From contig JAITMP010000003.1 of assembly GCA_031277315.1 (NCBI GenBank), positions 1 to 50,096 of the forward strand: a stretch of DNA of 50,096 nucleotides, read 5' to 3'. The notes under the pieces are model-generated. The model was not told the origin of the DNA and did no database searches. It worked only from the letters and a program-made list of their open reading frames with translations. Both the position numbers and the translations under genes were made by a program. Below are positions 27,515 to 42,992 of the stretch, piece after piece (position 1 is the first letter of the stretch; each line of letters begins with the position of its first letter). The stretch is from Zoogloeaceae bacterium (GTDB taxonomy: Bacteria; Pseudomonadota; Gammaproteobacteria; Burkholderiales; Rhodocyclaceae).

Positions 27515-28618
27515 GTGAACGCTAACGAGACGCCCCCGGCCAATCCGGCCAAGGAGCCTTCGTCTGAATGTCTGGCGCCGCCGGCGTCGGCGGACCCCGC
27601 AGCCTATCCGGCAGCGAGCGCGCCGACAACTTCGCGCCGGAGTTTCCTCAAGGCTGGCGGTATGTTGAGCCTGTCGTCCCTGATGGGCGCCGGGGCGCTG
27701 ATGACGCAATCGGGCGAGGCGCACGCCGCCGCCGAGTGGGCTGAGCATTTCCAGAAGAATTACCGCCTGATGACGGCGGAGGAAAAAGACGAAGCGCGCA
27801 AGCGGCTGGAGCGGCGCTATTCGCGGGAATATGAAAAGCCGGTGACGGTCGACATCACCGGGCCGCAGCCGGGCGTGCTGATGGGCTACGCGCTCAACGT
27901 GCGCAAGTGCATCGGCTGCCGCCGTTGCGTCAAGGCCTGCGTGGCCGAGAACAACCAGTCGCGCGGCGAGCGCCCCGGCGAGCGCATCGAGTGGATTCAG
28001 GTGTTGCGCATGGAGCGCGGCGAATTTTCCCAGGACAAGATGGATCACGGCTACCCGGAAGGGCTGGGCATCCAGGTCGGCGGCAACGCCTACACCCCGG
28101 CCGGGCAGGTGCTCGAAGGCCAGTATCACTACGCGCCGGAAGCGGTGCCGGAGAAAGACGCCACCTACATGCCGATCGCCTGCATGCAGTGCGAGAAGCC
28201 GCCCTGCGTCAAGGTCTGCCCGGTGCGCACGACCTACCGCGAGGCCGACGGCCCGGTGGTGATCGACTACAACTGGTGCATCGGCTGCCGCATGTGCATG
28301 GGCGCCTGTCCGTACTGGGCGCGCCGCATCAACCTGACCACGCCGGTGCTGCCGAAGGCGGAGATGAACCCGGTGACGCACTATCTGGGCAACCGGCCAC
28401 GCATGCGCGGCGTCGTCGAAAAATGCCACTGGTGTTTGCAGCGCACCCGTCAGGGCCGCTATCCGGCCTGCGTCGAGGTCTGCCCGGTCGGCGCGCGCAA
28501 GTTCGGCAACCTGCTCGACCCGAACAGCGAGGTGAGCCTGATTCTGGCGCGGAAAAACGTCTTCCGCCTGAAGGCCGAACTCAACACCTTCCCGAAATTC
28601 TTCTACTTCTACGATTGA
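27515..28618 (+). CDS. Tat-exported ferredoxin-like protein with four [4Fe-4S] sites
   Basis: Periplasmic electron-transfer subunit of the DsrO/HybA/PsrB type. The start is GTG 27515 behind AGGAGAACC. A Tat signal with SRRSFLK at residues 40–46 and a hydrophobic run ends near AHA at 72. Four cysteine quartets follow: C132/135/138/142, C223/226/231/235, C255/258/261/265 and C304/307/319/323. The next gene encodes an NrfD-type membrane partner and the third a multihaem cytochrome. It should relay electrons between the membrane quinone site and the haems. A sulfur, nitrogen or metal-linked pathway cannot be told apart from this subunit. Confidence 0.88.
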   Translation: MNANETPPANPAKEPSSECLAPPASADPAAYPAASAPTTSRRSFLKAGGMLSLSSLMGAGALMTQSGEAHAAAEWAEHFQKNYRLMTAEEKDEARKRLERRYSREYEKPVTVDITGPQPGVLMGYALNVRKCIGCRRCVKACVAENNQSRGERPGERIEWIQVLRMERGEFSQDKMDHGYPEGLGIQVGGNAYTPAGQVLEGQYHYAPEAVPEKDATYMPIACMQCEKPPCVKVCPVRTTYREADGPVVIDYNWCIGCRMCMGACPYWARRINLTTPVLPKAEMNPVTHYLGNRPRMRGVVEKCHWCLQRTRQGRYPACVEVCPVGARKFGNLLDPNSEVSLILARKNVFRLKAELNTFPKFFYFYD

Positions 28619-28628
28619 GGAGCGAGCC

Positions 28629-29852
28629 GTGCAACAACTGACCCGTTTCGCTGCCGATTATGTGAGTTACGTCCTCAAGGGCGGCACCAAGTTTTATGCC
28701 TGGATGGCCTGCCTGGCGGCGCTTATCATCGGCATGATGTATGTGTTCTACCTCCAGAACACCGACGGCCTGATCGTCACCGGCATGACCAGCCAGATTC
28801 ACGATGGCCTCTACTTCGCCAATCTGGTCTTTCTGGTCGGCGTCGCCGCCGGAGCGGTGACCATCGTCTTCCCGGCTTACGTCTATCACCACGAAGGCAT
28901 GCACAAGGTGACGGTGCTGGGCGAGATGCTGGCGATTTCCGCCGTCATCATGGTGACGATGTTCGTCTTCGCCCACATGGGACGGCCCGACCGCCTCTGG
29001 CACATGATGCCGATCATCGGCATTTACAGCCTCAACGCGATGCTCGGCTGGGACGTGCTGGTGCTGATGGGCTACCTGCTCCTGAACGCCATCTGCGGTT
29101 TCTACTACCTGTGGACGAAATACACGGGCCGCGAGGTGAATAAAAAATTCTTCATGCCGCTGGTGTACATCTCGATTGTCTGGGCGCTCTCCATCCACAC
29201 CGTGACAGCCTTCCTGATCTCGACCATGCCGGCGCGCCCGATGTGGTTCCACAGCATGATGCCGATCCGCTTCATCACCACCGCCTTTGCTGCCGGCCCC
29301 TGCCTCATCATTCTGGCCTTCCTCATCATCCGCAACAACACCAAGATGTGGGTCGAGGACAGCGCCATCAAGCTGCTGACGACCATCATCACCTGGTGTC
29401 TGGGCATTGCGCTCTTTCTCACCATGTCGGAAATCGTCGTCGAGTTTTATGCCCGCACCGAGCACGCCAACGGCCTCTACTACCTGATGTTCGGCCTGCA
29501 CGGCCTGACCCGGCTGGTGCCCTGGTTCTGGGGCGCGCTGATTCTGATGGTCGGCGCGTTCGCGCTGTTCCTGATGCCGTCCGTGCGCAACAACATGAAG
29601 CTGCTGCCGATCCCCTGCGTCATGGCCTTTTGCGGCATCTGGATCGAGAAGGGCATGGGTCTGGTCGTCCCCGGCTTCATCCCCTCGCCGATCGGCGAAG
29701 TGACCGAGTACTACCCGACTTTCGTCGAAGTGCTGATGACGCTTGGCATCTGGGCCTTCGGCTTTTTCATCCTGACCATCCTGCTCAAGGGCGCCATCGG
29801 CATCCTGCAGGGCGAGATCAAATATGGCGGCGCGGCCGCCGCCGCGAAGTGA
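28629..29852 (+). CDS. NrfD/PsrC-family membrane subunit, DsrP-like
   Basis: Integral membrane protein expected to carry a quinone site and pass electrons to the Fe-S subunit encoded just before it. The start is GTG 28629 with GAGGAGCGAG upstream. The 407 residues contain about ten hydrophobic spans. MGRPDRLWHMMP (around residue 117) and the SEIVVEFYARTEHANGLYY region (around 266) are loops with charged residues as in longer, DsrP-like members. No molybdopterin subunit is encoded nearby, so this is not a standard Psr/Nrf reductase operon. Confidence 0.87.
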   Translation: MQQLTRFAADYVSYVLKGGTKFYAWMACLAALIIGMMYVFYLQNTDGLIVTGMTSQIHDGLYFANLVFLVGVAAGAVTIVFPAYVYHHEGMHKVTVLGEMLAISAVIMVTMFVFAHMGRPDRLWHMMPIIGIYSLNAMLGWDVLVLMGYLLLNAICGFYYLWTKYTGREVNKKFFMPLVYISIVWALSIHTVTAFLISTMPARPMWFHSMMPIRFITTAFAAGPCLIILAFLIIRNNTKMWVEDSAIKLLTTIITWCLGIALFLTMSEIVVEFYARTEHANGLYYLMFGLHGLTRLVPWFWGALILMVGAFALFLMPSVRNNMKLLPIPCVMAFCGIWIEKGMGLVVPGFIPSPIGEVTEYYPTFVEVLMTLGIWAFGFFILTILLKGAIGILQGEIKYGGAAAAAK

Positions 29853-29862
29853 GAGGGCGATC

Positions 29863-30702
29863 ATGAAAAAGTCCGCATTGCACACGATACTCATCGCGCT
29901 TGGCGCCATCGTCGTCCTTGGCGGCGGCGTGGCGGTCAGCGTTTTCTCCCAGGATGCCGCGCCGCAGGAAGCCGCGCCGCCGGAACCCCAGGAAGTCATT
30001 TGCTTCGAGAGCCGCAAGGGCGCGTCCGAGATCACCCAGCACGAGATCCAGCCCGGCCTGCTCAACGTCAAGTGCTCGCCGACCACCGGCGCGGCGCTCT
30101 GGTACGGCGACCCCTACGAGGGCACCGTGCCGATGGGCAAGATGCCGCTGCTGGAGAGCATCCCGGATGACAAGGCTGTCGTGCGGCCGCGCTCCGAAAA
30201 GCTGAATCTGCTTGCGATGTGCGGCACGGCCTGCCACAACAACACGCTGCCGCTGGCATCCCGCGTGCCGCCGACGCTCCCGAAGAACAACCGGCCAGTG
30301 CCGATCCCGACCATGGAAGGCATGCTGCCGGAAATCGCCAACTTGCAGCATGGCCGCGGCCGCATCTGGTGCCTTGATTGTCATCACACGACCAAGCGCA
30401 ACATGCTGGTTGATCACTTTGGCGATCCGATCAGCTTCGATCAGCCGCAACTCCTGTGCGGCAAGTGCCACGGCGACAAGCTGCGCGACTGGCGTGACGG
30501 CATTCATGGCAAGCGCATCGGCGAATTCGCCAGCACCGGCAAGAAACGCTGGTTCGTCTGCACCGAATGCCACAACCCGCACGACGTGCAGAACGGTGAC
30601 CGCAACCGCGGCTTCACCCAGTTGCAGCCCGAACTGCCGCCGCAACTCTCGCACGGCATGAAGGATGCCAACTACGAAAAGCTGCATCCCATTCCCCACT
30701 GA
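29863..30702 (+). CDS. Membrane-anchored four-haem cytochrome c with one CX3CH motif
   Basis: 279-residue exported cytochrome. The start is ATG 29863 (MKKSALHTILIALGAIVV) with AGAGGG upstream; an earlier in-frame ATG at 29824 lies inside the previous gene. An N-terminal hydrophobic segment (8–27) acts as anchor or signal. Canonical CXXCH sites are at 170–174, 199–203 and 233–237. A fourth, at 120–125, reads Cys-Gly-Thr-Ala-Cys-His, one residue longer than normal. Free cysteines at 47 and 71 could be axial ligands, as a cysteine is in DsrJ. Several spare histidines are available. Probably the periplasmic end of the Fe-S/NrfD chain. Confidence 0.83.
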   Translation: MKKSALHTILIALGAIVVLGGGVAVSVFSQDAAPQEAAPPEPQEVICFESRKGASEITQHEIQPGLLNVKCSPTTGAALWYGDPYEGTVPMGKMPLLESIPDDKAVVRPRSEKLNLLAMCGTACHNNTLPLASRVPPTLPKNNRPVPIPTMEGMLPEIANLQHGRGRIWCLDCHHTTKRNMLVDHFGDPISFDQPQLLCGKCHGDKLRDWRDGIHGKRIGEFASTGKKRWFVCTECHNPHDVQNGDRNRGFTQLQPELPPQLSHGMKDANYEKLHPIPH

Positions 30703-31157: not shown

Positions 31158-31553
31158 ATGCCGCAGCGTATCAACTGGGAGCCAGGCAACAGCGTCGGCA
31201 ACGCCACGCTCGACGCGCAGCATCAGGCGCTGCTCGCCCGCTGCAATCTTCTCGCCGACTGCCTCGCTATCGGCGGCGCGGCAGGCGAGCGGCGCTTTGA
31301 TGAAGCCTTTGCCGAACTGCTCGCCCTCGCCCGCCAACACTTCAGCACCGAAGAAACCCTGCTGGCGCAAAGCGGCCATGCCGGGCTGGACGTCTACCGC
31401 GACGAATGCGCCGAGTTCGATTATCTGGCGGACGACATCATCACCACCGAAAACTTCGACCGCGACGAACTGCAAACCTTCCTCGCCCTGTGGTGGACCG
31501 GCCACATCCTCGACGCCGCCAAAAACCATCGCGCCTGTCTGGAACAACCGTAG
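31158..31553 (+). CDS. Bacteriohemerythrin
   Basis: 131-residue single-domain hemerythrin, a non-haem di-iron O2-binding protein (NO is a possible ligand). The ligand pattern is readable: DAQHQALLARC (first His), RQHFSTEETLL (HXXXE) and WTGHILDAAKNH (C-terminal His with Asp). The middle SGHAGLDVYRDEC region keeps one His where many members have two, so one ligand should be checked. Last gene of the five-gene redox cluster. It may protect or supply the Fe-S/haem module. Confidence 0.78.
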   Translation: MPQRINWEPGNSVGNATLDAQHQALLARCNLLADCLAIGGAAGERRFDEAFAELLALARQHFSTEETLLAQSGHAGLDVYRDECAEFDYLADDIITTENFDRDELQTFLALWWTGHILDAAKNHRACLEQP

Positions 31554-31607: not shown

Positions 31608-32249
31608 TCAGGTGTCGCTTTCGAGTTCCCGGATCAGCCGTGTCAGCGCGGCGGGGGGTTGTCCGTGGGGGACTTTGAAGCGGAGATGTCCGGCGCGGTC
31701 GAATATGAAGACGTAGGCCGTGTGGTCGAGCGTGTAGGAATCGCCGCCGGTCGGGATTTTTTGATAGCTGACCTTGTACATGTCCGCGACGCGCCGCGTT
31801 TCTTCCGGTGTGCCGCGCAATCCGATGAATCTGGCGTTGAAGGCGGGGACATATTCGGCGAGCAATTGCTGCGTATCCCGCTCGGGGTCAATCGTCACGA
31901 ACAGCACTTGCACGCGATCGGCATCCGAGCCAAGGTCACGATAGACTTCGGCGAACGCTGCCAGAGTGGTGGGGCATACGTCCGGGCACTGGGTGAATCC
32001 GAAAAACAGGGCGACGATTTTGCCCCTGAAATCAGATAACCGCACTGTTTTTCCGTTGTGATCCGTGAGATGAAAATCGTTTGAGTAGGCTTCGCCGCTG
32101 ACATCAATGGCGTCCGGTTCCGGCGGCGGGGCATCGCGCTCGCATCCGGCAAGCGGGAGCCACAGCGCCATCATTGCCGCAAGCATGATGTGAGCATAAA
32201 TCCGATCTCCCTTCGTCAACGGATGGCCGGAGTTGCGGAAATGCGGCAT
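31608..32249 (-). CDS. Sco1/SenC-family copper protein, lipoprotein
   Basis: Thioredoxin-fold protein that binds copper in the periplasm and delivers it, or reduces cysteines, for copper enzymes. I prefer ATG 32249 (MPHFRNSGHPL, 213 residues), which has GGAAGAAAAG upstream. An in-frame opening to 32378 overlaps palindromes that look regulatory. A hydrophobic stretch ends in the lipobox LPLAGC (Cys36). The copper ligands CPDVC (Cys88, Cys92) and His176 in DHTAYVF are all present. Usually linked to cytochrome oxidase, but here it is divergent from a CuZ-type propeller gene with only 311 bases between starts, which suggests service to that protein. Confidence 0.88.
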   Translation of the reverse strand: MPHFRNSGHPLTKGDRIYAHIMLAAMMALWLPLAGCERDAPPPEPDAIDVSGEAYSNDFHLTDHNGKTVRLSDFRGKIVALFFGFTQCPDVCPTTLAAFAEVYRDLGSDADRVQVLFVTIDPERDTQQLLAEYVPAFNARFIGLRGTPEETRRVADMYKVSYQKIPTGGDSYTLDHTAYVFIFDRAGHLRFKVPHGQPPAALTRLIRELESDT

Positions 32250-32327
32250 TGGGCGCTTTTCTTCCATGACGCCAAATCTAATCCGCCTGGATTGATCGGA
32301 TGCCGTTATTTCAAATCGAAAAGACAA

Positions 32328-32360
32328 TTTCAAAATGAAACGCCGCGATGTTTCATCGCG
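32328..32360. promoter_or_regulatory. Cluster of palindromes, candidate activator (UAS) sites
   Basis: Three symmetric elements overlap here: TTTCA-N3-TGAAA (32328–32340), TGAAAC-N8-GTTTCA (32336–32355) and a perfect CGCGATG-TTT-CATCGCG (32344–32360). They lie about 90–120 bases upstream of the sigma54-type -24/-12 element, the normal distance for enhancer sites of NtrC-type activators. The regulator encoded at 41619–42992 is the obvious candidate to bind them. Confidence 0.5.
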
Positions 32361-32449
32361 TTTGCCGTGTCGCAGCAATAATCGTCAAACAGAGAAGATT
32401 TGGCAGTCATAACAATAACCTTGGCGCGGCACGACGCAGCATCAACGCC

Positions 32450-32465
32450 TGGCCTGCGATTTGCT
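32450..32465 (+). promoter_or_regulatory. Sigma54-type -24/-12 promoter
   Basis: TGGCCTGCGATTTGCT matches the pattern TGGCAC-N5-TTGCW with the essential GG and GC at the right spacing, a perfect TTGCT at -12, and two mismatches at -24. Transcription would start near 32476, about 85 bases before the propeller gene ATG. A sigma54-dependent regulator is encoded 9 kb downstream in the same cluster. Confidence 0.6.
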
Positions 32466-32560
32466 AATGGTCTGGAAGGCATCACTGGCGGCGACATAAC
32501 GGTGATTCTTGAGGGAGGGGATTTTCTACTATCAACCATCTGTTGAGTCGAGGAGGCGTC

Positions 32561-34195
32561 ATGTCAACAAGTAATGAAATTGAAAAAGCGGCCGAGGGCG
32601 CGGGGGAGGCAGCCGCTTCGGAGGATAAAGATCAAACCCCTGAAGGCGCGTCGGCAACGGAAGGCCGCCGGGGTTTTCTGAAGTCGATGGGCGTCGGCGC
32701 GGGGGCCGCGGCTGTCGGCGCGATGGGTACGACCGCGATGGTGGCCGGCGGCGCGCTGGTGGCGTCTTCTGAAGCCAAGGCGGCGACGAAATACATCAAG
32801 TTCGAGCAGGTCTTCAATCAGTTGGGCAAGTACATCATGCTCGTGCCGGGCAAATTCACCGGCACGGTTGCCGCCATTGACTTGTACACAGGGAAGACGC
32901 TCGCCTGGACGGCCTTCTGGAATTACGGCGATACAAGCCCGATCATTCACCACATGGCGGCATTTCCGGCGCCGGATCCCTACAAGGAGTTTGAATTCAT
33001 CGTCAATTCGCAAGGCGGCAAGAATCTGTTCATCTACGGCATTCCCACGACGGTGAAGAATCCCGGCGAAGGCTTCCGCATCTACCGCGTCAAATATGAC
33101 GGCACCAAACTCAACGTGGTTTCCGATGTCGCGGAGAAGACAGGGATGGGCCTCGGCGTGCACGTGACGAGCGCGCCGGATGCAAAGAGCTTCTCCGTCG
33201 GGGATGGGCAAAAGGACATCTTCGCCGTTTTCGACCGCGAAACGGAGGCGGTGAAGTCGGCATGGTATTTCGACTGGATACCCAATAACACCAAGGAGCT
33301 TGCGAAAGCCTGGACGGAGGGCGGCAAGCTGGTGATCAAACGGCTGAAGCCCACCTTGCCGAACGGCATGTATGACTACAAGGGCACCAAGGGAATCAAA
33401 ATCGACTGGGAGCTGGTGCCGGGCGGCGAACTGTTCGCGGAGCAAGGCAAGGTCACAGGCAAGCGGGTCGCCAATACCTGCGGACTGGATGCCTTCGTGT
33501 GGGATCCGCGCGGCAAATGGGCGGCCGCTTCACTGCGTCTCCAGGGCTTGTCGATCGTGTTCGATGTCGAGAACTGGGTGCCGGTGGCCGCGCTTCCGGG
33601 CGCCAAGGGCGTGCCCGATCAGGTGCCGCTGAAAAAGATCAACGATGACACTTGGGAAGTGGTCATGGATCAGGTCGTCACGCCGGCGCACCAGGCCGGA
33701 TTTTCGCCTGACGGCAAGCATTTCCTGTTCATGAATGGCGTGCGCCAGAACAACATCATGGTCTGGGATACGAACAACCATGCCGATCCAAGCACATGGA
33801 AGAAGAAGGCTGTCGTCGAGCACCCCGACTGGCGCGGCGCGTATCCCAACACCTTCCACATGGTGTTCACGCCCGATGCCAAGAAAATCTACGTCACGCT
33901 CTGGTGGCCTTCGCCGACGCCCAACGGCGTTGCGGTGATCGACGCCGTGAACTGGAAAGTGCTCAAGCAAATCGACCTAGGGCCGGATATGCACACCATC
34001 GCCGTGACCTACGACGGCAAGTTTGTCGTGGGGGTGATGAGCGGCTATCAGAAAACGGTGACCTCGATCCCCGTGATCTCGACCGAAGACGACGAGCTTC
34101 TGGGATTCTTCCCGAGCACGGGCGGCCACCATGACAACGTGATCGTGCCGAGAACCGTGCAGGATCTCCGGGTCAGCCGTTCCACGACCACCTAG
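32561..34195 (+). CDS. Tat-exported NosZ-like CuZ beta-propeller lacking the CuA domain
   Basis: 544 residues. The start is ATG 32561, directly behind AGGAGG; a TTG at 32543 would put that site inside the gene. Tat motif RRGFLK is at 36–41, with cleavage expected near residue 75. The rest resembles the N-terminal seven-bladed propeller of nitrous oxide reductase. Compared by eye with Paracoccus NosZ, histidines fall in matching contexts for all seven CuZ ligands: His130-His131 (NosZ 129/130), His201 (178), His377 (326, PHGC to PAHQ), His433 (382), His478 (433) and His524 followed by Asp (494). The 377–433 spacing, 56 residues, equals that in NosZ. The protein ends 20 residues after His524 and has one cysteine, so there is no CuA cupredoxin domain. 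N2O reduction is possible but unproven. Other copper-propeller activities remain open. Confidence 0.75.
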   Translation: MSTSNEIEKAAEGAGEAAASEDKDQTPEGASATEGRRGFLKSMGVGAGAAAVGAMGTTAMVAGGALVASSEAKAATKYIKFEQVFNQLGKYIMLVPGKFTGTVAAIDLYTGKTLAWTAFWNYGDTSPIIHHMAAFPAPDPYKEFEFIVNSQGGKNLFIYGIPTTVKNPGEGFRIYRVKYDGTKLNVVSDVAEKTGMGLGVHVTSAPDAKSFSVGDGQKDIFAVFDRETEAVKSAWYFDWIPNNTKELAKAWTEGGKLVIKRLKPTLPNGMYDYKGTKGIKIDWELVPGGELFAEQGKVTGKRVANTCGLDAFVWDPRGKWAAASLRLQGLSIVFDVENWVPVAALPGAKGVPDQVPLKKINDDTWEVVMDQVVTPAHQAGFSPDGKHFLFMNGVRQNNIMVWDTNNHADPSTWKKKAVVEHPDWRGAYPNTFHMVFTPDAKKIYVTLWWPSPTPNGVAVIDAVNWKVLKQIDLGPDMHTIAVTYDGKFVVGVMSGYQKTVTSIPVISTEDDELLGFFPSTGGHHDNVIVPRTVQDLRVSRSTTT

Positions 34196-34307: not shown

Positions 34308-35507
34308 ATGCTCGGTTTGGCCCTGAGAAATTTGCAGCGCAAGCCCTTCCGCACTTACGCTTTGGCGATTGCGGTGGCGATTGCGATTGGCGCGGTTTTC
34401 GCCACGGCAACGATTTTGTGGGGAGTCGAGCGCAGTCTGGCGCAAGGCTTCTCGAAATTCGGCGCGGACGCGCTGGTCGTTCCCAAAGGCGCTTTGGTTA
34501 ACATCAAGACGGCGCTGCTGACGGGCGAGCCTTCAACTTTTTACATGAAAGGCAGCTACGGGGAACAGATTCGCAATCTGGCCGGCGTGTCGAAGGTGAC
34601 GCCGCAATTGTTCCTGACCACGGCATCCGGTTCTCACTGCATCGTCGGCAATGCCTTTCTCGTCGGCTTCGATCCGCGCACCGATTTCACTGTCATGCCC
34701 TGGCTCTACCAGAAACAAGAGCGGGAATTCGCGCGCGGCGACGTCGTCGTCGGCGCCAATAATAATTATCAGGTCGGCGATGTCGTCTATTTCTATGGAG
34801 AAACCTTTACCGTTTTCGGCAAGCTCGACCGGACGGGAATCGGCCTCTACGACAACGCGATTTTCCTGCACATCGACCAGGCTTACGACCTGATCGACAG
34901 TTCCAAAAAATATGCCGACGTGCCGGACATGGGTTTCGCGCGCGGGGATGTGTCGGCGCTGCTGGTGCAGATCGGCAGCACGGCCAAGGCGAACCTGATC
35001 CGGTTCGCGATCGCCAAGAACCCCGAGGTGCGCGTGGTGACCGCCGGAAATATCGTGACATCGGTGCGCCAGAATCTGACGGCCCTTTTCACGGGCACGG
35101 TCGCCTTGATCGTTGTCCTCATCATCGGCAACGTCTTGATGATCAGCGCCATATTTTCGACCATTGTGAATGAACGCAAGAAGGAACTCGGACTGCTGCG
35201 CGCAATCGGCGCGCGGCGGTTTTCCGTATTCAGTCTGGTTCTGTCGGAGTCGATCATGTTGACGACGTTCGGCGGGCTTATCGGACTCGGTCTGGGCGTG
35301 ATTTTGCTGAGGATATTCGCCCGCTCAATCGGCTTTCACCTTGAAACGCTCAACATCCCCTTCCTGTGGCCCCCTTTGTACCAGGTCGCGCTGCTCGCCG
35401 TCGCCGCAGTGATTTTCGCCTTGCTGGTGGGCGCGCTGGGCGCCCTCTACCCTGCGGTCGCCGGAAGCCGCATCGAGCCTTACGACGCGATACGCGCCGG
35501 AGAATGA
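34308..35507 (+). CDS. FtsX/MacB-type ABC permease, first pair
   Basis: 399-residue inner-membrane protein. One N-terminal span (about 15–38) is followed by a large extracytoplasmic domain (40–250) and three C-terminal spans with the family loop VNERKKELGLLRAIGARR (around 285). The C-terminus GALYPAVAGSRIEPYDAIRAGE is typical. MacB-type transporters work by mechanotransmission on periplasmic substrates instead of moving solutes through a channel. An ATPase gene follows after 4 bases. Cys109 within SGSHCIVGN is in the extracytoplasmic domain next to a histidine, of interest in a copper-linked cluster. Confidence 0.88.
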   Translation: MLGLALRNLQRKPFRTYALAIAVAIAIGAVFATATILWGVERSLAQGFSKFGADALVVPKGALVNIKTALLTGEPSTFYMKGSYGEQIRNLAGVSKVTPQLFLTTASGSHCIVGNAFLVGFDPRTDFTVMPWLYQKQEREFARGDVVVGANNNYQVGDVVYFYGETFTVFGKLDRTGIGLYDNAIFLHIDQAYDLIDSSKKYADVPDMGFARGDVSALLVQIGSTAKANLIRFAIAKNPEVRVVTAGNIVTSVRQNLTALFTGTVALIVVLIIGNVLMISAIFSTIVNERKKELGLLRAIGARRFSVFSLVLSESIMLTTFGGLIGLGLGVILLRIFARSIGFHLETLNIPFLWPPLYQVALLAVAAVIFALLVGALGALYPAVAGSRIEPYDAIRAGE

Positions 35508-35511
35508 AGCC

Positions 35512-36186
35512 ATGGCCATGAAAGTCGAACTGCGTGAACTGAATCGCGCCTACCGGATCGGCGACCAGGTTATCGAGGCGGTGCGTGATGTCAGCCTCTC
35601 GATTGACGCCGGCGAATTCGCCGCGATCATCGGCCATTCGGGCAGCGGCAAATCCACCCTGCTGTCCATGATCGGCGGCCTGGCGCGCCCGACATCGGGA
35701 ACGGTGTTGATCGAGGATGTTGATATCTGGGCGCGCGATGACGCTTTCAGATCGGATTTCCGAAACGCCCGCATCGGTTTTGTGTTTCAGTTCGCGAGCC
35801 TTATTCCGACGCTGAACGCGGTCGAGAATGTCGCCTTGCCGCGCAACTTCGGCAAGGGAGGAAACCGCGCCCAGGACGAGGAGGAAGCCATCATGCTTCT
35901 GGAACGGGTTGGCCTGGGCGAGCGCTTGTTTTCCTATCCGAGCGAATTGTCGGGCGGCCAGCAACGGCGCGTCGCCATCGCGCGGGCGCTCATCAACAGC
36001 CCCGCATTGCTGCTTGCCGACGAACCCACCGGCGATCTCGACGAAGAGACGGAGGCGGAGGTGATGGAACTGCTTTTGTCGTCCTGCCGCAAGACCCATG
36101 CCGCGTTCCTGATGGTGACGCACAATCGCGCCATCGCGGAGGGCGCGGATCACGTCTTTCGTCTGAAAGGGGGCGCATTGCAATGA
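35512..36186 (+). CDS. ABC transporter ATPase, LolD/MacB type, first pair
   Basis: 224-residue nucleotide-binding protein. Walker A is GHSGSGKST (around 41), the signature is LSGGQQRR (around 142), Walker B is LLLADEPTGDLD (around 161) and the H-loop is MVTHN. ATG codons at 35512 and 35518 are both possible starts. The stop overlaps the next permease start by 4 bases. Expected to energise the permease encoded immediately upstream. Confidence 0.92.
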   Translation: MAMKVELRELNRAYRIGDQVIEAVRDVSLSIDAGEFAAIIGHSGSGKSTLLSMIGGLARPTSGTVLIEDVDIWARDDAFRSDFRNARIGFVFQFASLIPTLNAVENVALPRNFGKGGNRAQDEEEAIMLLERVGLGERLFSYPSELSGGQQRRVAIARALINSPALLLADEPTGDLDEETEAEVMELLLSSCRKTHAAFLMVTHNRAIAEGADHVFRLKGGALQ

Positions 36187-37397
36187 AGCTCTATCAGATC
36201 GCCCTGCGTGAAATCGGGCGGCGCAAGATGCGCACACTCTACACCGCCAGCAGCGTGGCCATCTCCGTCGCGCTGCTCATTGCGGCCCTGATGGTGGGCA
36301 TGGCAGGGCAGAAGGATCTGCTGCTGACGATTGCCCGTTACGGTCACAGCCTGACGATATTTCCGGCGACGTCGAATGAAACGAGTCTGCAAAACTTCGG
36401 CATCGGCACGGGTCACTACATTCCCGAAGACTCGATTCCAACCATTCAGGAAGTGTACGAAAAAGCCATCCGCATCGGCTGGGAAAAGAAGGGCGGCTTC
36501 GTGCTCGACGCCGGCGCGCCCGGCGGGGTCGACATGCTGCAACCGGCGGTGTTTACGCCGCGCCTCTATGAAGAAACCACGGTACAGGGCAAGAAAGTGG
36601 TGATTGCCGGCATACGGCCAAGCGAGGAGTACACCGCCAGATTCTGGTGGGAAGTGGATGAGGGAAGCCTGCTGCAGAAAAACGACGAGTGCATGGTCGG
36701 CAAGGTTTTTTCAAAGGTGACGGGCGTCAAGGCGGGCGACGTGCTGACCATCAACGAAAAACCGTTCAGGGTTTCCGGCGTGCTGCGCGAAACGGATTCG
36801 CCGGACGATTACATGATCTTCGCGCATCTTGGCAAAGTACAGGAAGCCTTCGGCAAGCCCAACCGGGTATCGTTGATCAATGTCCGCGCCATGTGCAACT
36901 ACTGCCCCGTCGGCGAGGCGGAACTTGCGTTGAATACGACTGTTGTCGGTATCAGGGCGACTTCCCAGCGGGAGATCGCGGAAGCGCAGCATCGCATTTT
37001 CAAGAACGTCACCAGCGTGATCGTCGGTCTGGTTCTCTTGTCGATGATCATCGCCTGTATGGCGGTGTTCAACATGGTGATGGGAAACATTCACAACCGT
37101 CTGCGCGAAGCCGGCTTGCTGAAAGTGGCCGGCGCTTCGCGGGGCCAATTGATGCGGCTGTTCATCTATGAATCGCTCATAATCGGGCTGGTGGGCGGTC
37201 TGATCGGCTATGGCCTGGGCCACGCGCTGGCGGTCACGGTCGGCCCGATGCTGCTGAGCGGCGCGGTGATCGAGCCGCAATGGGAATATCTGCCCATCGC
37301 GGTGGGTGCCGCGATGATCGCAAGCATGCTCGCCACGATTTATCCGGCTTACTACATATCCAGGATCCGCGCCTCGGAAGCCTTCCGGGCGCTCTAA
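36183..37397 (+). CDS. FtsX/MacB-type ABC permease, second pair, with a periplasmic CXXC
   Basis: 404-residue permease of the same layout: one N-terminal span (about 20–42), an extracytoplasmic domain and three C-terminal spans with NIHNRLREAGLLKVAGASRGQ. The extracytoplasmic domain contains RAMCNYCPVGE, placing a CXXC pair at Cys238/Cys241 just before the second span. This could bind a metal or exchange disulfides. Overlaps the upstream ATPase gene by 4 bases and is followed after 4 bases by the second ATPase. It is not a close duplicate of the first permease. Confidence 0.87.
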   Translation: MKLYQIALREIGRRKMRTLYTASSVAISVALLIAALMVGMAGQKDLLLTIARYGHSLTIFPATSNETSLQNFGIGTGHYIPEDSIPTIQEVYEKAIRIGWEKKGGFVLDAGAPGGVDMLQPAVFTPRLYEETTVQGKKVVIAGIRPSEEYTARFWWEVDEGSLLQKNDECMVGKVFSKVTGVKAGDVLTINEKPFRVSGVLRETDSPDDYMIFAHLGKVQEAFGKPNRVSLINVRAMCNYCPVGEAELALNTTVVGIRATSQREIAEAQHRIFKNVTSVIVGLVLLSMIIACMAVFNMVMGNIHNRLREAGLLKVAGASRGQLMRLFIYESLIIGLVGGLIGYGLGHALAVTVGPMLLSGAVIEPQWEYLPIAVGAAMIASMLATIYPAYYISRIRASEAFRAL

Positions 37398-37401
37398 TCA
37401 C

Positions 37402-38100
37402 ATGACCGAGATCGTGCGTTTGGAAGGGTTGAGCAAGACCTACGGGATGGGCGGCGCGAACGTGACGGCCCTTGCCGATATCAATCTGGTCATCACGGGC
37501 GGTGAATTCGTCGCCTTGATCGGGCCGAGCGGATCGGGCAAGTCCACGCTGCTGAACATGATCGGCGGCATCGACAAACCGAGCGGCGGCGCGGTGTACA
37601 TCGACGGCCAGCGCATCGACACGCTGAATGAACAGCATCTGCTCAAATTGCGCCGGGAAAAAATAGCCTATGTATTTCAGGAGGCGCGCTTGCTGCCCTC
37701 ATTGACGGCGCTTGAAAACGTGACGTTGTCGTCGGCCTTTAACCGCAAGCTCAACAAGAATTGCAACGAGCGCGCCATGGAACTGCTGGGCAAGGTGGGG
37801 TTGGCCGGTCGCGCCAAACACATGCCGCACCAGCTTTCCGGCGGCGAAGCGCAGCGCGTCTGCATCGCGCGCGCATTGTTCAATCAGCCGCGATTGATTC
37901 TTGCGGACGAGCCGACGGGCAACCTGGATCATCGCACCCGCATCGGGATCGTCGAGTTGTTTGAGGAACTGCACGGGGAGGGTAATGCCGTCATCATGGT
38001 GACGCATGATCCGGAGCTTGCCATGCGGGCTGGCCGCACCATTTCGCTGCACGACGGCACGCTTCAGACTGACGAAGTGCGCGCCGCGCAAGTTGGGTGA
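37402..38100 (+). CDS. ABC transporter ATPase, LolD/MacB type, second pair
   Basis: 232-residue ATPase with Walker A GPSGSGKST (around 43), signature LSGGEAQRV (around 146), Walker B LILADEPTGNLD and H-loop MVTHD. It pairs with the second permease. Its TGA stop shares one base with the ATG of the next gene, so the operon continues by coupled translation. Confidence 0.92.
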   Translation: MTEIVRLEGLSKTYGMGGANVTALADINLVITGGEFVALIGPSGSGKSTLLNMIGGIDKPSGGAVYIDGQRIDTLNEQHLLKLRREKIAYVFQEARLLPSLTALENVTLSSAFNRKLNKNCNERAMELLGKVGLAGRAKHMPHQLSGGEAQRVCIARALFNQPRLILADEPTGNLDHRTRIGIVELFEELHGEGNAVIMVTHDPELAMRAGRTISLHDGTLQTDEVRAAQVG

Positions 38101-38786
38101 TGATGTCGGGGGCAACGCCGCGCTTGAAGCGCTTGTCGCGGCCGGGCGGCCTCAAAGCCTGGAAGGCGGTGTTTTGGACAGGCGCCATGCTTGCCGTGCT
38201 GCTTGCCGCCGCCGATTGGGGCGTCGGAAGATGGCAGCAAGGGCTGGTGCAGGCGAGAAAGGATTACCGCGCCAGCCTGGATCGGCTGGCATTCCATGCC
38301 GTGCGAACCGGTATCGAGGAGATTCGGCATCAGGAAGACGGGCGCTACCGCATTCGCTTGATTGTCCAGAATGCGTTTGACGAGCCGATTTTCGTCATGA
38401 TGCCGGCTGTCGATGCCTTCATCCAGATTGGCCCGCAATGGGTCGGCGTGCAGATAGCCGAGGCACCGGAGGCGGCAATGGAAGGGAGCGTCGTTCGTCT
38501 GGTGGGCGAGAGGGCCACGGATCGGTATTTGACTGTCGAGCCAACCGACTATACGGAATCCATACCCGGCTATATTCATCTCAAGCTGAATCTTGAAATG
38601 ATTGTCTCGCCGGAACAGAATCCGCAGGAAGAAGTGGGAGAGCGCAAGGAAGACCTGATCTTGTATCTGAAGGATTATCGCTGGGCGTCAGACAAGACGC
38701 GGCATGGCAACCCCGCCTTTGACGAAAAGCCGGACTTCATTCCATTGCGCGCCTGGACGCTTGTGCCGCGCTCGCCGAAATCGTGA
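38100..38786 (+). CDS. Single-span membrane protein of unknown family, paralogue 1
   Basis: About 228 residues. ATG 38100 or 38103 starts it, within the upstream stop. After a basic N-terminus there is one hydrophobic span (about 24–42), then a probable periplasmic domain rich in beta-strands. Motifs shared with the next gene product are FVMMPAVDAFIQIGPQW, EGSVVRL and ESIPGYIHLKLNLEMIVS. No cysteines occur in the domain. I do not recognise the family. Its place between an ABC pair and a sensor system suggests a periplasmic adaptor or chaperone for the same substrate. Confidence 0.65.
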   Translation: MMSGATPRLKRLSRPGGLKAWKAVFWTGAMLAVLLAAADWGVGRWQQGLVQARKDYRASLDRLAFHAVRTGIEEIRHQEDGRYRIRLIVQNAFDEPIFVMMPAVDAFIQIGPQWVGVQIAEAPEAAMEGSVVRLVGERATDRYLTVEPTDYTESIPGYIHLKLNLEMIVSPEQNPQEEVGERKEDLILYLKDYRWASDKTRHGNPAFDEKPDFIPLRAWTLVPRSPKS

Positions 38787-38805
38787 GGGCGAGTTGAATT
38801 CCGGC

Positions 38806-39453
38806 ATGCGCCGCATGGACCCACGACGCAGGCGGCGCGGCTGGCGCCGGTGGCTATGGCCTGTCGTGATCGGGCTTGGCGTGGGCGCGATCGCCGCAAG
38901 CGACTGGGTGGTCGGCAGGTATCAAGACCATCTCGTCGAAGTCAAGCGCGAACACCGCAAGAAGCTGGAGAAAATGGCCTGGTTCTACATCCGGGCCGAT
39001 CTGGATCATGTCGAATACACGCCGGACAACAAATACCGGGTCACCACCTGGATTGAGAATGCCTTTCCGGAACATCCCGCATATGTGATGATGCCGAACG
39101 TGCGCGCCTACGTTCAGGTTGGCCCGCAATGGCAGGAAATTTCCGGCGTCGAACCCGCGGAGAGCCGGTGGGCCGAAGGCACCGTGGTCAGGCTGGATGG
39201 CCGTGTGGAGACGCAGCGTATTTTTGATATTCAAGAGAAAGATTATTTCGAATTGCTGCCCGGCTACATGCATGTCCGCTTCGACAATGTCATGTATATT
39301 TCAGACGAAGCGGAACCGAAGGACGATGTTCTGGAACGGGCCTCGGTGTATTACATACACCTGCGTCCCTTTGGGGCAGACGATGCCAAACTGAAAGCAA
39401 TGAACAATTTTCCTTCCGATGTGCCCGTGTATATCAGCATGCCGCCCCATTGA
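38806..39453 (+). CDS. Single-span membrane protein of unknown family, paralogue 2
   Basis: About 215 residues from ATG 38806 (MRRMDPRRRRRGWRR); a TTG at 38794 behind GAGGGCGAG is an alternative start. A very basic N-terminus leads into one span (about 16–33) and a periplasmic domain. It matches the preceding product along its length: YVMMPNVRAYVQVGPQW, EGTVVRL, ELLPGYMHVRFDNVMYIS. The two arose by tandem duplication and may form a heterodimer. The shared methionine pair before the GPQW strand is worth noting in a copper context, though it may be structural. Confidence 0.62.
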   Translation: MRRMDPRRRRRGWRRWLWPVVIGLGVGAIAASDWVVGRYQDHLVEVKREHRKKLEKMAWFYIRADLDHVEYTPDNKYRVTTWIENAFPEHPAYVMMPNVRAYVQVGPQWQEISGVEPAESRWAEGTVVRLDGRVETQRIFDIQEKDYFELLPGYMHVRFDNVMYISDEAEPKDDVLERASVYYIHLRPFGADDAKLKAMNNFPSDVPVYISMPPH

Positions 39454-40009
39454 CACCGGAAAAACCGGCCCCCGGACGTTTGGGCGCGGGGTGATCGTCT
39501 TCGCCTTGTCCTTGTTTTTGATAACCGGCTGCGGACTTCCCGATCCGCTGAAGATGGGTGTCGAAACTTCAGAAATCGTCGCATTGCAAGCGCTTGAGGA
39601 CTGGGGGAAACTGCTCCTCGTTCAAGTCAGCATCGAGAACAAGGGAGATGCGGCCATGCATGTCTTTACCGACATGCTCGACGTGGTCGGAGAAAACGGC
39701 AGCCGCGGCTCCGTGCGGGCCTTCCGCGACCGTTATCGTTTTGAACTGGCGAAGGCGCCTGACGCGGCCCGGCGCAAGAGCCTGACGGCCTTGTTCGCCG
39801 AAATTGGCGTCGCGGAGGAGCAGGCGCGCCAGTTATTCAGTCCGCAACTGGAAATCCTGCCCGGTGAAACGCTGCACGTCATCCTGCCTTTCATGCTCAA
39901 GGAGGATAATGCGGATTCCCGCTATGTCCTGCACTTCGCCTATCACGACGACGCCACGGACCGCGTCAGGCGGGAGAGCTTGCCGTTGATGGCAAAGCGA
40001 AAGGCCTGA
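39419..40009 (+). CDS. Predicted lipoprotein of unknown function
   Basis: 196 residues if started at ATG 39419, which overlaps the previous gene by 35 bases. A GTG at 39491 would give a shorter signal peptide. A hydrophobic segment ends in the lipobox LITGC (Cys38), so the protein should be lipid-anchored in the periplasm. The mature part has a beta-sandwich-like pattern (LLLVQVSIENKGDAAMHVFTD in the middle, LEILPGETLHVILPFML later), as in domains that present a rigid periplasmic face. Same operon as the ABC genes. Confidence 0.62.
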   Translation: MCPCISACRPIDTGKTGPRTFGRGVIVFALSLFLITGCGLPDPLKMGVETSEIVALQALEDWGKLLLVQVSIENKGDAAMHVFTDMLDVVGENGSRGSVRAFRDRYRFELAKAPDAARRKSLTALFAEIGVAEEQARQLFSPQLEILPGETLHVILPFMLKEDNADSRYVLHFAYHDDATDRVRRESLPLMAKRKA

Positions 40010-40029: not shown

Positions 40030-41622
40030 TTGCGATGGGAAACACATTCCGTGACAAGCTACGCCGACGTCACCGCCGAGCAGCTGCGTCCCCACGGCCT
40101 GAATGTGCTGCCCCAGCTATTTGCGGCATCAGTTCGCGGCGCCCAGCTTCCTCCCTTGGGCTGGCGGCGGCATCTGCTGCTCGCGCTCATCCTGACGCCT
40201 CCTCTGGCGCTGACCGCCGCGCTGGGCTATGGCAGCAACATGAGTTTTCCGGGATACCCGAACAATGGCGCGCATATCCTGATCGAGGGTTTTTGCGCCC
40301 TCATGTCGCTCGTCGTGTTCTACGTGCTGCATCAGGAATACATCAGCACCGGCATTCGCTGCCTGCGCATGATGGCCTTCGCTTTTCTGATTCTTGGCAT
40401 TCTGGATGGCGTGCATGCGCTCAGTCCGCCCTATTCGGAGCTTTTTGTCTGGTTTCGCAGCGCGGCCGCTTTTATTTCCGGGGCAATGCTGGCGCTGGCT
40501 TTAAGCATGAGCGGACGTTGCCGGCGGATCGCCGATAAAGACACGGCAAAAGCCAATGTCGAAGCCGCGCTGGTGGGCGCGGCGACGCTTGTTTTTGCGG
40601 GACTCTCGTTTGTATTCCGTGATGACCTGCCCCTCATGCTGGAGGGCGCGCGTTTTTCCATTCTGGCCCTGATCGAAAAGGGATTGGCGGGACTTTTTTA
40701 TCTGATTTCGGGAATCGTCTTTCTTCATTACTATCGGCGCAGCAGGGAAAACATTCTGTTTGTGCTGGCGGTCGCCATGTTTCTGCTCGTCGAGAGCCAG
40801 TGGCTGTCTTTCTTTTCAGATCCGTGGGACATGATTTGGTGGACCTGGCACTGGATCAGGACGGCTGTCTTCATCGGCATCCTGTTCGGCATCGCCCACC
40901 AGGTTGTGCAAAGCGCCAAGGATCTCCAGATGTCCCACATGTGGCTCGTGGAAAAGGAAAAGCTTGCCTCTCTCGGCGAGATGGCCGCCAGCATCGCCCA
41001 TGAGATTCGCAATCCGCTCGGCACCCTGACAAGCTCGGTCGGCCTGCTCGGCGATGCGCGGTTATCGGGCGCCGAGCGGAGCGAGCTGATCGGCATCGTC
41101 GAACGGGAAGTCAACCGCCTCAACCATGTGGTGTCAGACACCTTGATGTTCGCGCACCCGCGCGCCGGTCAACTCCACCCGCTGAATCTGGAAACGGTAG
41201 TCCGGGACGCGGTCAAACTTCAGGCTGTGCGTTTTCCCGCAATCGAAGTGGATATCCGCTTCGAGAGCGACTTTCCCTTGATACGCGGCAATGAAATCCA
41301 GTTGCAGCAGGTGATCTGGAACCTGTTCGACAACGCCGCAGCAGCTATGGGCGGGAAGGGCCGGTTCACCATTCTGGGTTGCCGCGATGGAAATTTCCTG
41401 ACGCTGGAACTCCGTGACACCGGCCCCGGCATCGCGCCTGAAAACCTGACCGAGATTCTTAAACCTTTTTTTACAACGAAAGCGAGCGGCGTCGGTTTGG
41501 GCTTGCCCATCACGCAGCGCATGGTTCTGGAGCATGAAGGAACCATGAGCATCGACAGCGAGGCGGGCAAGGGTACTTGCGTGCGTCTTTCTTTTCCCTT
41601 GATTGCCCGCCAGATGCCATGA
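40030..41622 (+). CDS. Membrane sensor histidine kinase with a MASE3-like input domain
   Basis: 530 residues if started at TTG 40030; GTG 40051 is an alternative and no clear ribosome site decides it. About seven hydrophobic spans (residues 48–290) resemble the MASE3 class of membrane-embedded sensors. Then come the H-box ASIAHEIRNPLG with His324, the N-box NLFDNAAAAM, G1 DTGPGIA and G2 GVGLGLPI. No PAS domain is visible. The stop overlaps the response-regulator start as ATGA, so they form a two-component pair that probably senses a membrane-soluble or redox signal for this cluster. Confidence 0.88.
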   Translation: MRWETHSVTSYADVTAEQLRPHGLNVLPQLFAASVRGAQLPPLGWRRHLLLALILTPPLALTAALGYGSNMSFPGYPNNGAHILIEGFCALMSLVVFYVLHQEYISTGIRCLRMMAFAFLILGILDGVHALSPPYSELFVWFRSAAAFISGAMLALALSMSGRCRRIADKDTAKANVEAALVGAATLVFAGLSFVFRDDLPLMLEGARFSILALIEKGLAGLFYLISGIVFLHYYRRSRENILFVLAVAMFLLVESQWLSFFSDPWDMIWWTWHWIRTAVFIGILFGIAHQVVQSAKDLQMSHMWLVEKEKLASLGEMAASIAHEIRNPLGTLTSSVGLLGDARLSGAERSELIGIVEREVNRLNHVVSDTLMFAHPRAGQLHPLNLETVVRDAVKLQAVRFPAIEVDIRFESDFPLIRGNEIQLQQVIWNLFDNAAAAMGGKGRFTILGCRDGNFLTLELRDTGPGIAPENLTEILKPFFTTKASGVGLGLPITQRMVLEHEGTMSIDSEAGKGTCVRLSFPLIARQMP

Positions 41623-42992
41623 GCAAGGCCAACGCCAACGCTTCCAGTGCCTCCCCTGCCGTCCTCATCATTGACGATCAGGCCGTTATGCGGCGCACGC
41701 TGGAAATCCTTTTTCGCAAGGAAGGGTATCGCGTCACATCCAGCGACAACGGAACAAGGATTCAGGTGCTGCTGGAAGAATTCCGCCCCGATGTGATCGT
41801 CACCGATGTGCGCATGGAGCCAGTCTCGGGCATTGACGTTCTGCGCCAGGTGCGCATCCTGAGGCCGACGCTGCCGGTTATTTTCATGACGGCATTCGGC
41901 ACGATCGCCATCGCCGTTGAAGCCATGAAGCTGGGGGCGGTGGATTTTCTCACCAAGCCGTTCAAGAACGAGGATCTGCTTTTCAAGGTGGAGTGCGCCC
42001 TTGAGAGCAGCGCCTCGCGGCCCGAAGACGCGCCGACATCTCTCGAGGCCATGGCCGATGAGCGTGACATGGTTGCCTCAAGCCCGGCGCTGCGCGCGGT
42101 GCTGGAACAGGTCGGCAGGATAGCCGGCTCAAATCTGACCGTGCTTGTAACCGGCGAGACGGGAACCGGGAAGTCGATGCTCGCCCATGAGATACATCGG
42201 CGCAGTCCGCGCGCCACCGGCCCATTCATTCCCATCAACGGCGCGGCGCTTCCCGAGCCGCTGCTTGAAAGCGAACTCTTCGGTTATGAAAAAGGCGCAT
42301 TTACCGGCGCGACAGCCAGCCGCGCGGGGCTTTTTGAAGTCGCCGAAGGCGGGACCATTTTTCTCGATGAGATCGGGACGCTTCCGGCCAATCTTCAAGC
42401 GAAGTTGCTGGGGGTTCTGCAAGACCGGCAGATCCGCCGCGTCGGAGGCCATCGCATCATCTCCGTCAATACCCGGTTTATCGCCGCCACGAACATCGAC
42501 CTGGAGCAATCGGTGCGGCGGGGCGAGTTCCGCCAGGACCTGTATTACCGGCTGAATGTCGCGCGCATCCGGATGCCTCCGCTGAGGGAACACCGGGAGG
42601 ATATTCCCTACATATTGCGGGAGATGTTGTCCGAACTGAGCGTCGGGCGCCCGTTCCGCTACGCCGTTTCCCCGGAGGCGCTGGAACTGATTAACCGCTA
42701 CCCCTTTCCCGGCAATGTCCGGGAATTACGCAATGCCATTGAATGGGCGGTGACAGTGGCCAAGGGCAGCATGATCGAAGCGGGCGATCTTCCCCAGGTC
42801 ATGCGCTTCGATAATGCGCCGATGTCCCTGGAGTCTGCCGCAGGCGGGCGCAGTCTGGCCGAAATGGAACGCAACCAGATTGCCAGCGCCATCGAAGCGC
42901 AGGGAGGCAACCTGACGGAGGTGGCGCGCACGCTGGGCATTGGCCGCACGACCTTGTGGCGCAAAATGCGTGAATATGGTTTAAAGAAGTGA
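41619..42992 (+). CDS. Sigma54-dependent NtrC-type response regulator
   Basis: 457 residues from ATG 41619, overlapping the kinase stop. The receiver domain has the acidic pair at 19–20, phospho-acceptor Asp63 and Lys113. The AAA+ domain has Walker A GETGTGKS (179–186), the sigma54-contact loop GAFTGA (226–231), Walker B GGTIFLDE (244–251) and the PGNVREL region near 373. A Fis-type helix-turn-helix (LTEVARTLGIGRTTLWRKM) ends the protein. All residues for sigma54 activation are present. The likely target is the -24/-12 promoter before the CuZ-type propeller gene. Confidence 0.95.
   Translation: MSKANANASSASPAVLIIDDQAVMRRTLEILFRKEGYRVTSSDNGTRIQVLLEEFRPDVIVTDVRMEPVSGIDVLRQVRILRPTLPVIFMTAFGTIAIAVEAMKLGAVDFLTKPFKNEDLLFKVECALESSASRPEDAPTSLEAMADERDMVASSPALRAVLEQVGRIAGSNLTVLVTGETGTGKSMLAHEIHRRSPRATGPFIPINGAALPEPLLESELFGYEKGAFTGATASRAGLFEVAEGGTIFLDEIGTLPANLQAKLLGVLQDRQIRRVGGHRIISVNTRFIAATNIDLEQSVRRGEFRQDLYYRLNVARIRMPPLREHREDIPYILREMLSELSVGRPFRYAVSPEALELINRYPFPGNVRELRNAIEWAVTVAKGSMIEAGDLPQVMRFDNAPMSLESAAGGRSLAEMERNQIASAIEAQGGNLTEVARTLGIGRTTLWRKMREYGLKK

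Follow-up and report, generated by a model that had tools for sequence, protein, structure and literature searches.

Thiocyanate dehydrogenase (TcDH) is a copper enzyme with which sulfur bacteria can live on thiocyanate. It forms homodimers of seven-bladed propellers whose central tunnel contains three copper ions (PMC9456337). Thiocyanate coordinates Cu1 through its nitrogen and both Cu2 and Cu3 through its sulfur; with water attacking the carbon, the substrate is oxidised to cyanate and sulfur, with two electrons leaving singly to an outside acceptor, a role filled in vitro by cytochrome c552 (PMC9456337). In the sections available on Thioalkalivibrio, the TcDH Tat signal is given as [ST]-R-R-x-F-L-K, copCD flank the gene, and downstream lies a cluster of two permease/ATPase pairs, genes of unknown function, a kinase and a sigma-54 regulator (PMC5328954); according to the accessible text of a further study, expression of this cluster rises on thiocyanate in T. 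thiocyanoxidans (PMC5744179). The halophile-type TcDH of Thiohalobacter and Guyparkeria is described as having little overall resemblance to the Thioalkalivibrio enzyme; its loci lack copCD and contain Cus-type copper genes, and a thioredoxin-like protein is encoded immediately ahead of TcDH (PMC6504805).

Here, we find that the window, that is, the whole 50,096-nucleotide stretch of Zoogloeaceae DNA analysed in this work, carries an orthologue of this already described copper enzyme and not a new nitrous oxide (N2O) reductase. The gene (32543..34195, + strand) is open from a TTG at 32543 or an ATG at 32561 to a stop ending at 34195 and encodes 550 or 544 amino acids, including one cysteine (C313), 11 histidines and the Tat motif G-R-R-G-F-L-K (residues 41-47), which keeps the twin arginine and FLK of the published signal and differs from it in the first letter. 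A phmmer search of the PDB returned nine distinct solved TcDH sequences (E 1e-234 to 1e-244), a set that includes several mutants of one enzyme and in which four are named TcDH in the phmmer table and five by their Foldseek titles; the next match, an archaeal surface-layer propeller, followed at E 3.9e-5. The protein is 65% identical to T. paradoxus TcDH (5F75) over the whole aligned length (341/526), while the mature part is 69.1% identical to 5F75 and 71.7% to the Pelomicrobium methylotrophicum enzyme (8Q9X). In a tree of 14 rows, a 100/100 branch divides a TcDH group of nine from five distant homologues; the window protein is among the nine and groups there with two Sulfuritalea loci (L002 and L004; 89% identical in the mature part). 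It is the single TcDH match in its genome. A Foldseek search with an AlphaFold model that is itself weak (mean pLDDT 56.5, pTM 0.64; built with 7 related sequences) placed TcDH at all of ranks 1 to 20 (E 2.5e-52 to 1.2e-47), with other propellers from 1.4e-11. The solved TcDH structures serve as the structural reference in place of this model. The window TcDH shares fold and length with the enzymes of T. paradoxus, T. thiocyanoxidans ARh2 (L007) and P. methylotrophicum and has a twin-arginine signal as they do; about 30% of its mature residues differ from theirs.

The genes behind TcDH, all on the + strand, match those of its relatives. An FtsX/MacB-type ABC permease (34308..35507; Pfam FtsX and MacB_PCD) comes first, as it does among the cluster genes of all six relatives compared (L002-L007; 62-87% identical). 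It is followed by an ABC ATPase (35512..36186; Pfam ABC_tran, E 3.6e-35), a second FtsX/MacB-type ABC permease, likewise assigned by Pfam (36183..37397), and a second ABC ATPase (37402..38100; ABC_tran, E 3.9e-36), each found in order in 6/6 relatives. Two proteins of unknown function come next, one with no NCBIfam match and no Pfam match over the cut-off (38097..38786) and one with no Pfam match at E 0.01, whose annotated start may be too early (38704..39453); both have tblastn matches in all six relatives, which in L007 fall in one region. The cluster continues with a small protein that is probably a lipoprotein, judged by eye from a lipobox-like start (39419..40009; no Pfam match at E 0.01; homologues in L002, L003, L004 and L007), a histidine kinase (40030..41622; Pfam HATPase_c, E 4e-23, and HisKA) and a sigma-54-type response regulator (41577..42992; Pfam Sigma54_activat, E 7.7e-68, Response_reg and HTH_8), the last two with homologues in every relative except L006. 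The kinase occupies the position of the two-component system described in the available portions of earlier work (PMC5744179, PMC5328954). The full order after TcDH is kept in L002, L003, L004 and L007 (T. thiocyanoxidans); L005 has no match to the lipoprotein, and L006, in which 1.7 kb separate TcDH from the first permease, has none to the lipoprotein, kinase or regulator. By analogy with T. thiocyanoxidans, in which induction is known, the ABC, unknown-function, kinase and sigma-54 regulator genes would form the thiocyanate-induced cluster of the window TcDH.

Upstream of TcDH, a possible sigma-54 promoter element, TGGCCTGCGATTTGCT (32450..32465, + strand), matches the consensus at 9 of 11 positions, a score that was also reached by 18/500 single-base shuffles of the window. 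The best matches upstream of TcDH score 9-10 of 11 in five of the six relatives and 7 in L006, with 16, 2, 33, 14, 463 and 24 of 500 shuffles reaching the best score in L002 to L007, respectively, so that each element is weak singly. Divergent from TcDH lies a gene for an SCO1/SenC copper chaperone-like protein (31608..32378, - strand; Pfam SCO1-SenC, E 1.2e-46); homologues were found near TcDH in L002, L004, L005 and L006 and none near TcDH in L003 and L007. Since CopC has no match in the whole genome of the window, the SCO protein may replace the copCD of Thioalkalivibrio. The adjoining SCO gene, the lack of a genomic copC and the placement of a flavocytochrome c domain gene on another contig distinguish this locus from those of the T. 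paradoxus, T. thiocyanoxidans and P. methylotrophicum enzymes. We also observed a PCu(A)C copper chaperone gene upstream of TcDH in L002 (9170-9655), L004 (9162-9680) and L005 (1042-1584; Pfam E 3e-36 to 4.5e-33 for the three), and in L005 a flavocytochrome c flavoprotein gene in addition.

The active site of T. paradoxus TcDH, as listed in the available text, comprises Lys103, His135, His136, Gln156, His206, Glu288, Asp314, His381, His437, His482, His528, Asp529 and Arg544 (PMC6504805). All 13 residues are identical in the window protein and in L002-L007, and hence common to the T. paradoxus and T. thiocyanoxidans enzymes and our protein. They are also identical in 5/5 distant homologues (L008-L012; 33-38% identity) and therefore mark a wider family and do not by themselves fix the substrate, which is why active-site conservation was dropped as a discriminating test. 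Conservation of this breadth would also suit a copper enzyme of the TcDH fold that has come to act physiologically on some other small sulfur or pseudohalide compound in place of thiocyanate, as would the fact that cyanase has no match in the window's genome; cyanase activity is reported absent also in thiocyanate-oxidising Thioalkalivibrio in the excerpt consulted (PMC6504805). However, the protein falls among characterised TcDH enzymes, to which it is 69-72% identical, and keeps the cluster that thiocyanate induces in T. thiocyanoxidans, and we consider such a shift very improbable. We regard it as nearly certain that the window protein is a TcDH acting as it does in its relatives, with the downstream genes as its thiocyanate-induced cluster.

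N2O reductase (NosZ) likewise has a propeller fold, which carries a four-copper sulfide cluster (CuZ), and the earlier note on this gene had drawn attention to its histidines. In agreement with that observation, H136, H137, H207, H383, H439, H484 and H530 occur in the same order as the CuZ ligands and in similar contexts, a likeness to NosZ of clades I and II. We compared a profile of 12 TcDH-type rows (the window and L002-L012) with one of 21 NosZ rows, namely two from the window's genome and 19 of 24 further loci (left out were L051, with a match of fewer than 500 columns, and L059-L062). In this hhalign alignment, five of the seven histidines lie exactly on NosZ ligands, H484 is off by 3 residues and H207 falls in a gap, so that for two of the seven the correspondence comes from local context rather than from the alignment. 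An earlier run, in which one NosZ row (L046) was misframed, gave the same 5/7, with residue 200 standing opposite the ligand that H207 should match, 7 residues off; the hypergeometric P of 1e-6 that it yielded for the histidine pairing is not an independent figure, since the aligner favours His-His columns. Histidine occupies all seven ligand positions in 20/20 full-length NosZ rows. The noted spacing of 56 residues between H383 and H439 also holds and recurs in 8/20 of these rows, the others having 55 (4/20) or 67 (8/20), whereas the remaining spacings of the window protein (71, 176, 45 and 46) differ from those of NosZ. The profile match as a whole is weak (E 0.0035, probability 9%), which leaves it plausible but unproved that the two copper sites share an ancestor. 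The seven-histidine layout common to TcDH and CuZ is real, but the relation is distant and, at the level of sequence, at the edge of detection.

The same seven histidines are common to TcDH enzymes and are hence non-discriminating, and other evidence has to decide whether the protein is a CuZ-only N2O reductase or belongs to the lactonase-type (clade III) L-NosZ enzymes, in either case with an external electron donor. Apart from the histidine order and the five exact pairings, this proposal draws on weak matches to the L-NosZ and TAT NosZ models. With L-NosZ, the shared ground is a weak partial match to the NCBIfam model NF052460 over residues 461-536 (19.8-20.2 bits, where the cut-off is 700), and T. 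thiocyanoxidans TcDH gives a similarly weak one (12.7 bits); the TAT NosZ model TIGR04244 scores 13.1 bits against a cut-off of 625, and TIGR04246 is not among the matches listed. By comparison, a NosZ of the same genome (L024) reaches 173 bits on the L-NosZ model and 897.5 bits on the Sec-dependent NosZ model TIGR04246. Among the best 50 of 1604 Foldseek matches there is no NosZ, the gene is located in a TcDH cluster and the genome carries NosZ genes of its own. Taken with scores so far below the cut-offs, these points leave the N2O reductase proposal with next to no probability. The distinct N2O-reducing enzyme that had been envisaged is instead a TcDH: phmmer, the tree and Foldseek all place the protein in this propeller family, which has crystal structures, a three-copper cofactor and a known substrate, the kind of placement that the earlier note had itself named as counting against its reading.

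Other parts of that description stood up. The CuA domain is indeed absent, as the window protein has a single cysteine and no C-x3-C, a clear difference from NosZ of clades I and II, in which the CuA motif C-x3-C-x3-H-x2-M is present in 21/21 rows. Without a CuA domain an outside electron partner is called for, and a Tat-exported copper propeller dependent on such a partner is what TcDH proves to be. The partner had been taken for an external donor, however, and in this respect the direction was reversed, since the electrons of TcDH flow out to an acceptor. More generally, a seven-histidine propeller can pass for a new N2O reductase, and annotation of such proteins calls for caution.

The copper, chemistry, acceptor and induction of TcDH are taken from the papers on its relatives, and by orthology the window copy would act in the same way. 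The protein would be exported in folded form by the Tat system, and its conserved histidines would bind three copper ions inside the propeller's central channel. Thiocyanate would span the coppers, water would attack its carbon and cyanate would depart, while the sulfur would be oxidised to S0 and two electrons would go singly to a c-type cytochrome outside the enzyme; no gene for such an acceptor was identified beside TcDH. Both dsrA and FCSD-flav_bind, the flavoprotein domain of flavocytochrome c, score above cut-off in the window's genome, the latter on a contig other than that of TcDH. Together with the homology, conserved site and cluster, these two genes are demonstrated by our analysis, and they suggest a likely onward route for thiocyanate sulfur in which S0 would enter a reverse Dsr pathway, if the dsr genes work in the oxidative direction as we infer. 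The genome also contains two NosZ genes on other contigs, the Sec-dependent L024 and L025, which is 84% identical to L024 and has the seven histidines and the CuA motif, so that N2O reduction needs no help from the window TcDH. It is speculative, and in our view rather unlikely, that a single bacterium links the oxidation of thiocyanate by TcDH with the reduction of N2O through its own Sec-type NosZ and completes the oxidation of the sulfur by reverse Dsr; if true, thiocyanate would serve as an electron donor for N2O removal.

The TcDH tree and the cluster identities indicate that the host is probably a relative of Sulfuritalea, a pattern that transfer could also produce. No paper with both TcDH and Sulfuritalea was among the matches listed for the literature on TcDH, Sulfuritalea and Pelomicrobium. 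Full-length TcDH relatives occur in 6 of 369 genomes of the class, the window's own included, with short partial matches in ten further genomes; the other five full-length proteins are L008-L012, and their 33-38% identity refers to the mature part. Four of these distant loci were examined. In all four, the gene for a small protein (AhpC-TSA/Redoxin fold in both scanned, one below cut-off) immediately precedes the TcDH-like gene and a large protein of 874-1053 amino acids (Pfam ACR_tran in both scanned) is encoded as well; in three, a kinase and a sigma-54 regulator lie nearby. With an RND pump and thioredoxin-fold neighbours, they look like the halophile-type TcDH locus, with which the window shares the active-site residues and a sigma-54 regulator in the cluster, as described in the available passages (PMC6504805). 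Our results place a known thiocyanate-oxidising enzyme, together with its cluster, in a genome in which NosZ and dsrA are also present, which by itself does not change the general picture. The original observation is sound and its answer is ordinary, namely that a bacterium with genes for sulfur oxidation carries the orthologue of an established enzyme within its known cluster. Separately, a protein annotated as hypothetical on two Methylocella tundrae plasmids (NZ_LR536451.1 and NZ_CP139088.1) shares about 50% identity with the window TcDH across 83% of its length.

Further upstream in the window (27515-30702, + strand), genes for a Tat-signal iron-sulfur protein, an NrfD-family protein and a 292-amino-acid cytochrome with four CXXCH motifs lie side by side. 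The iron-sulfur protein is DsrO-like (169 bits, below the cut-off of 200), and the NrfD-family protein exceeds the DsrP cut-off (374 against 350 bits), the genome's other DsrP match, on the dsrA contig, being much weaker (46 bits). As an electron route for TcDH these genes were rejected and are excluded from the TcDH system, because tblastn at E 1e-5 matched none of them in the loci of six relatives, a comparison that covers only 7.7 kb before TcDH in L003 and 4.3 kb in L005 and does not demonstrate absence farther out. Between this DsrOP-like module and the SCO gene lies a bacteriohemerythrin-like gene (31158-31553, + strand; Pfam Hemerythrin, E 4.5e-9).
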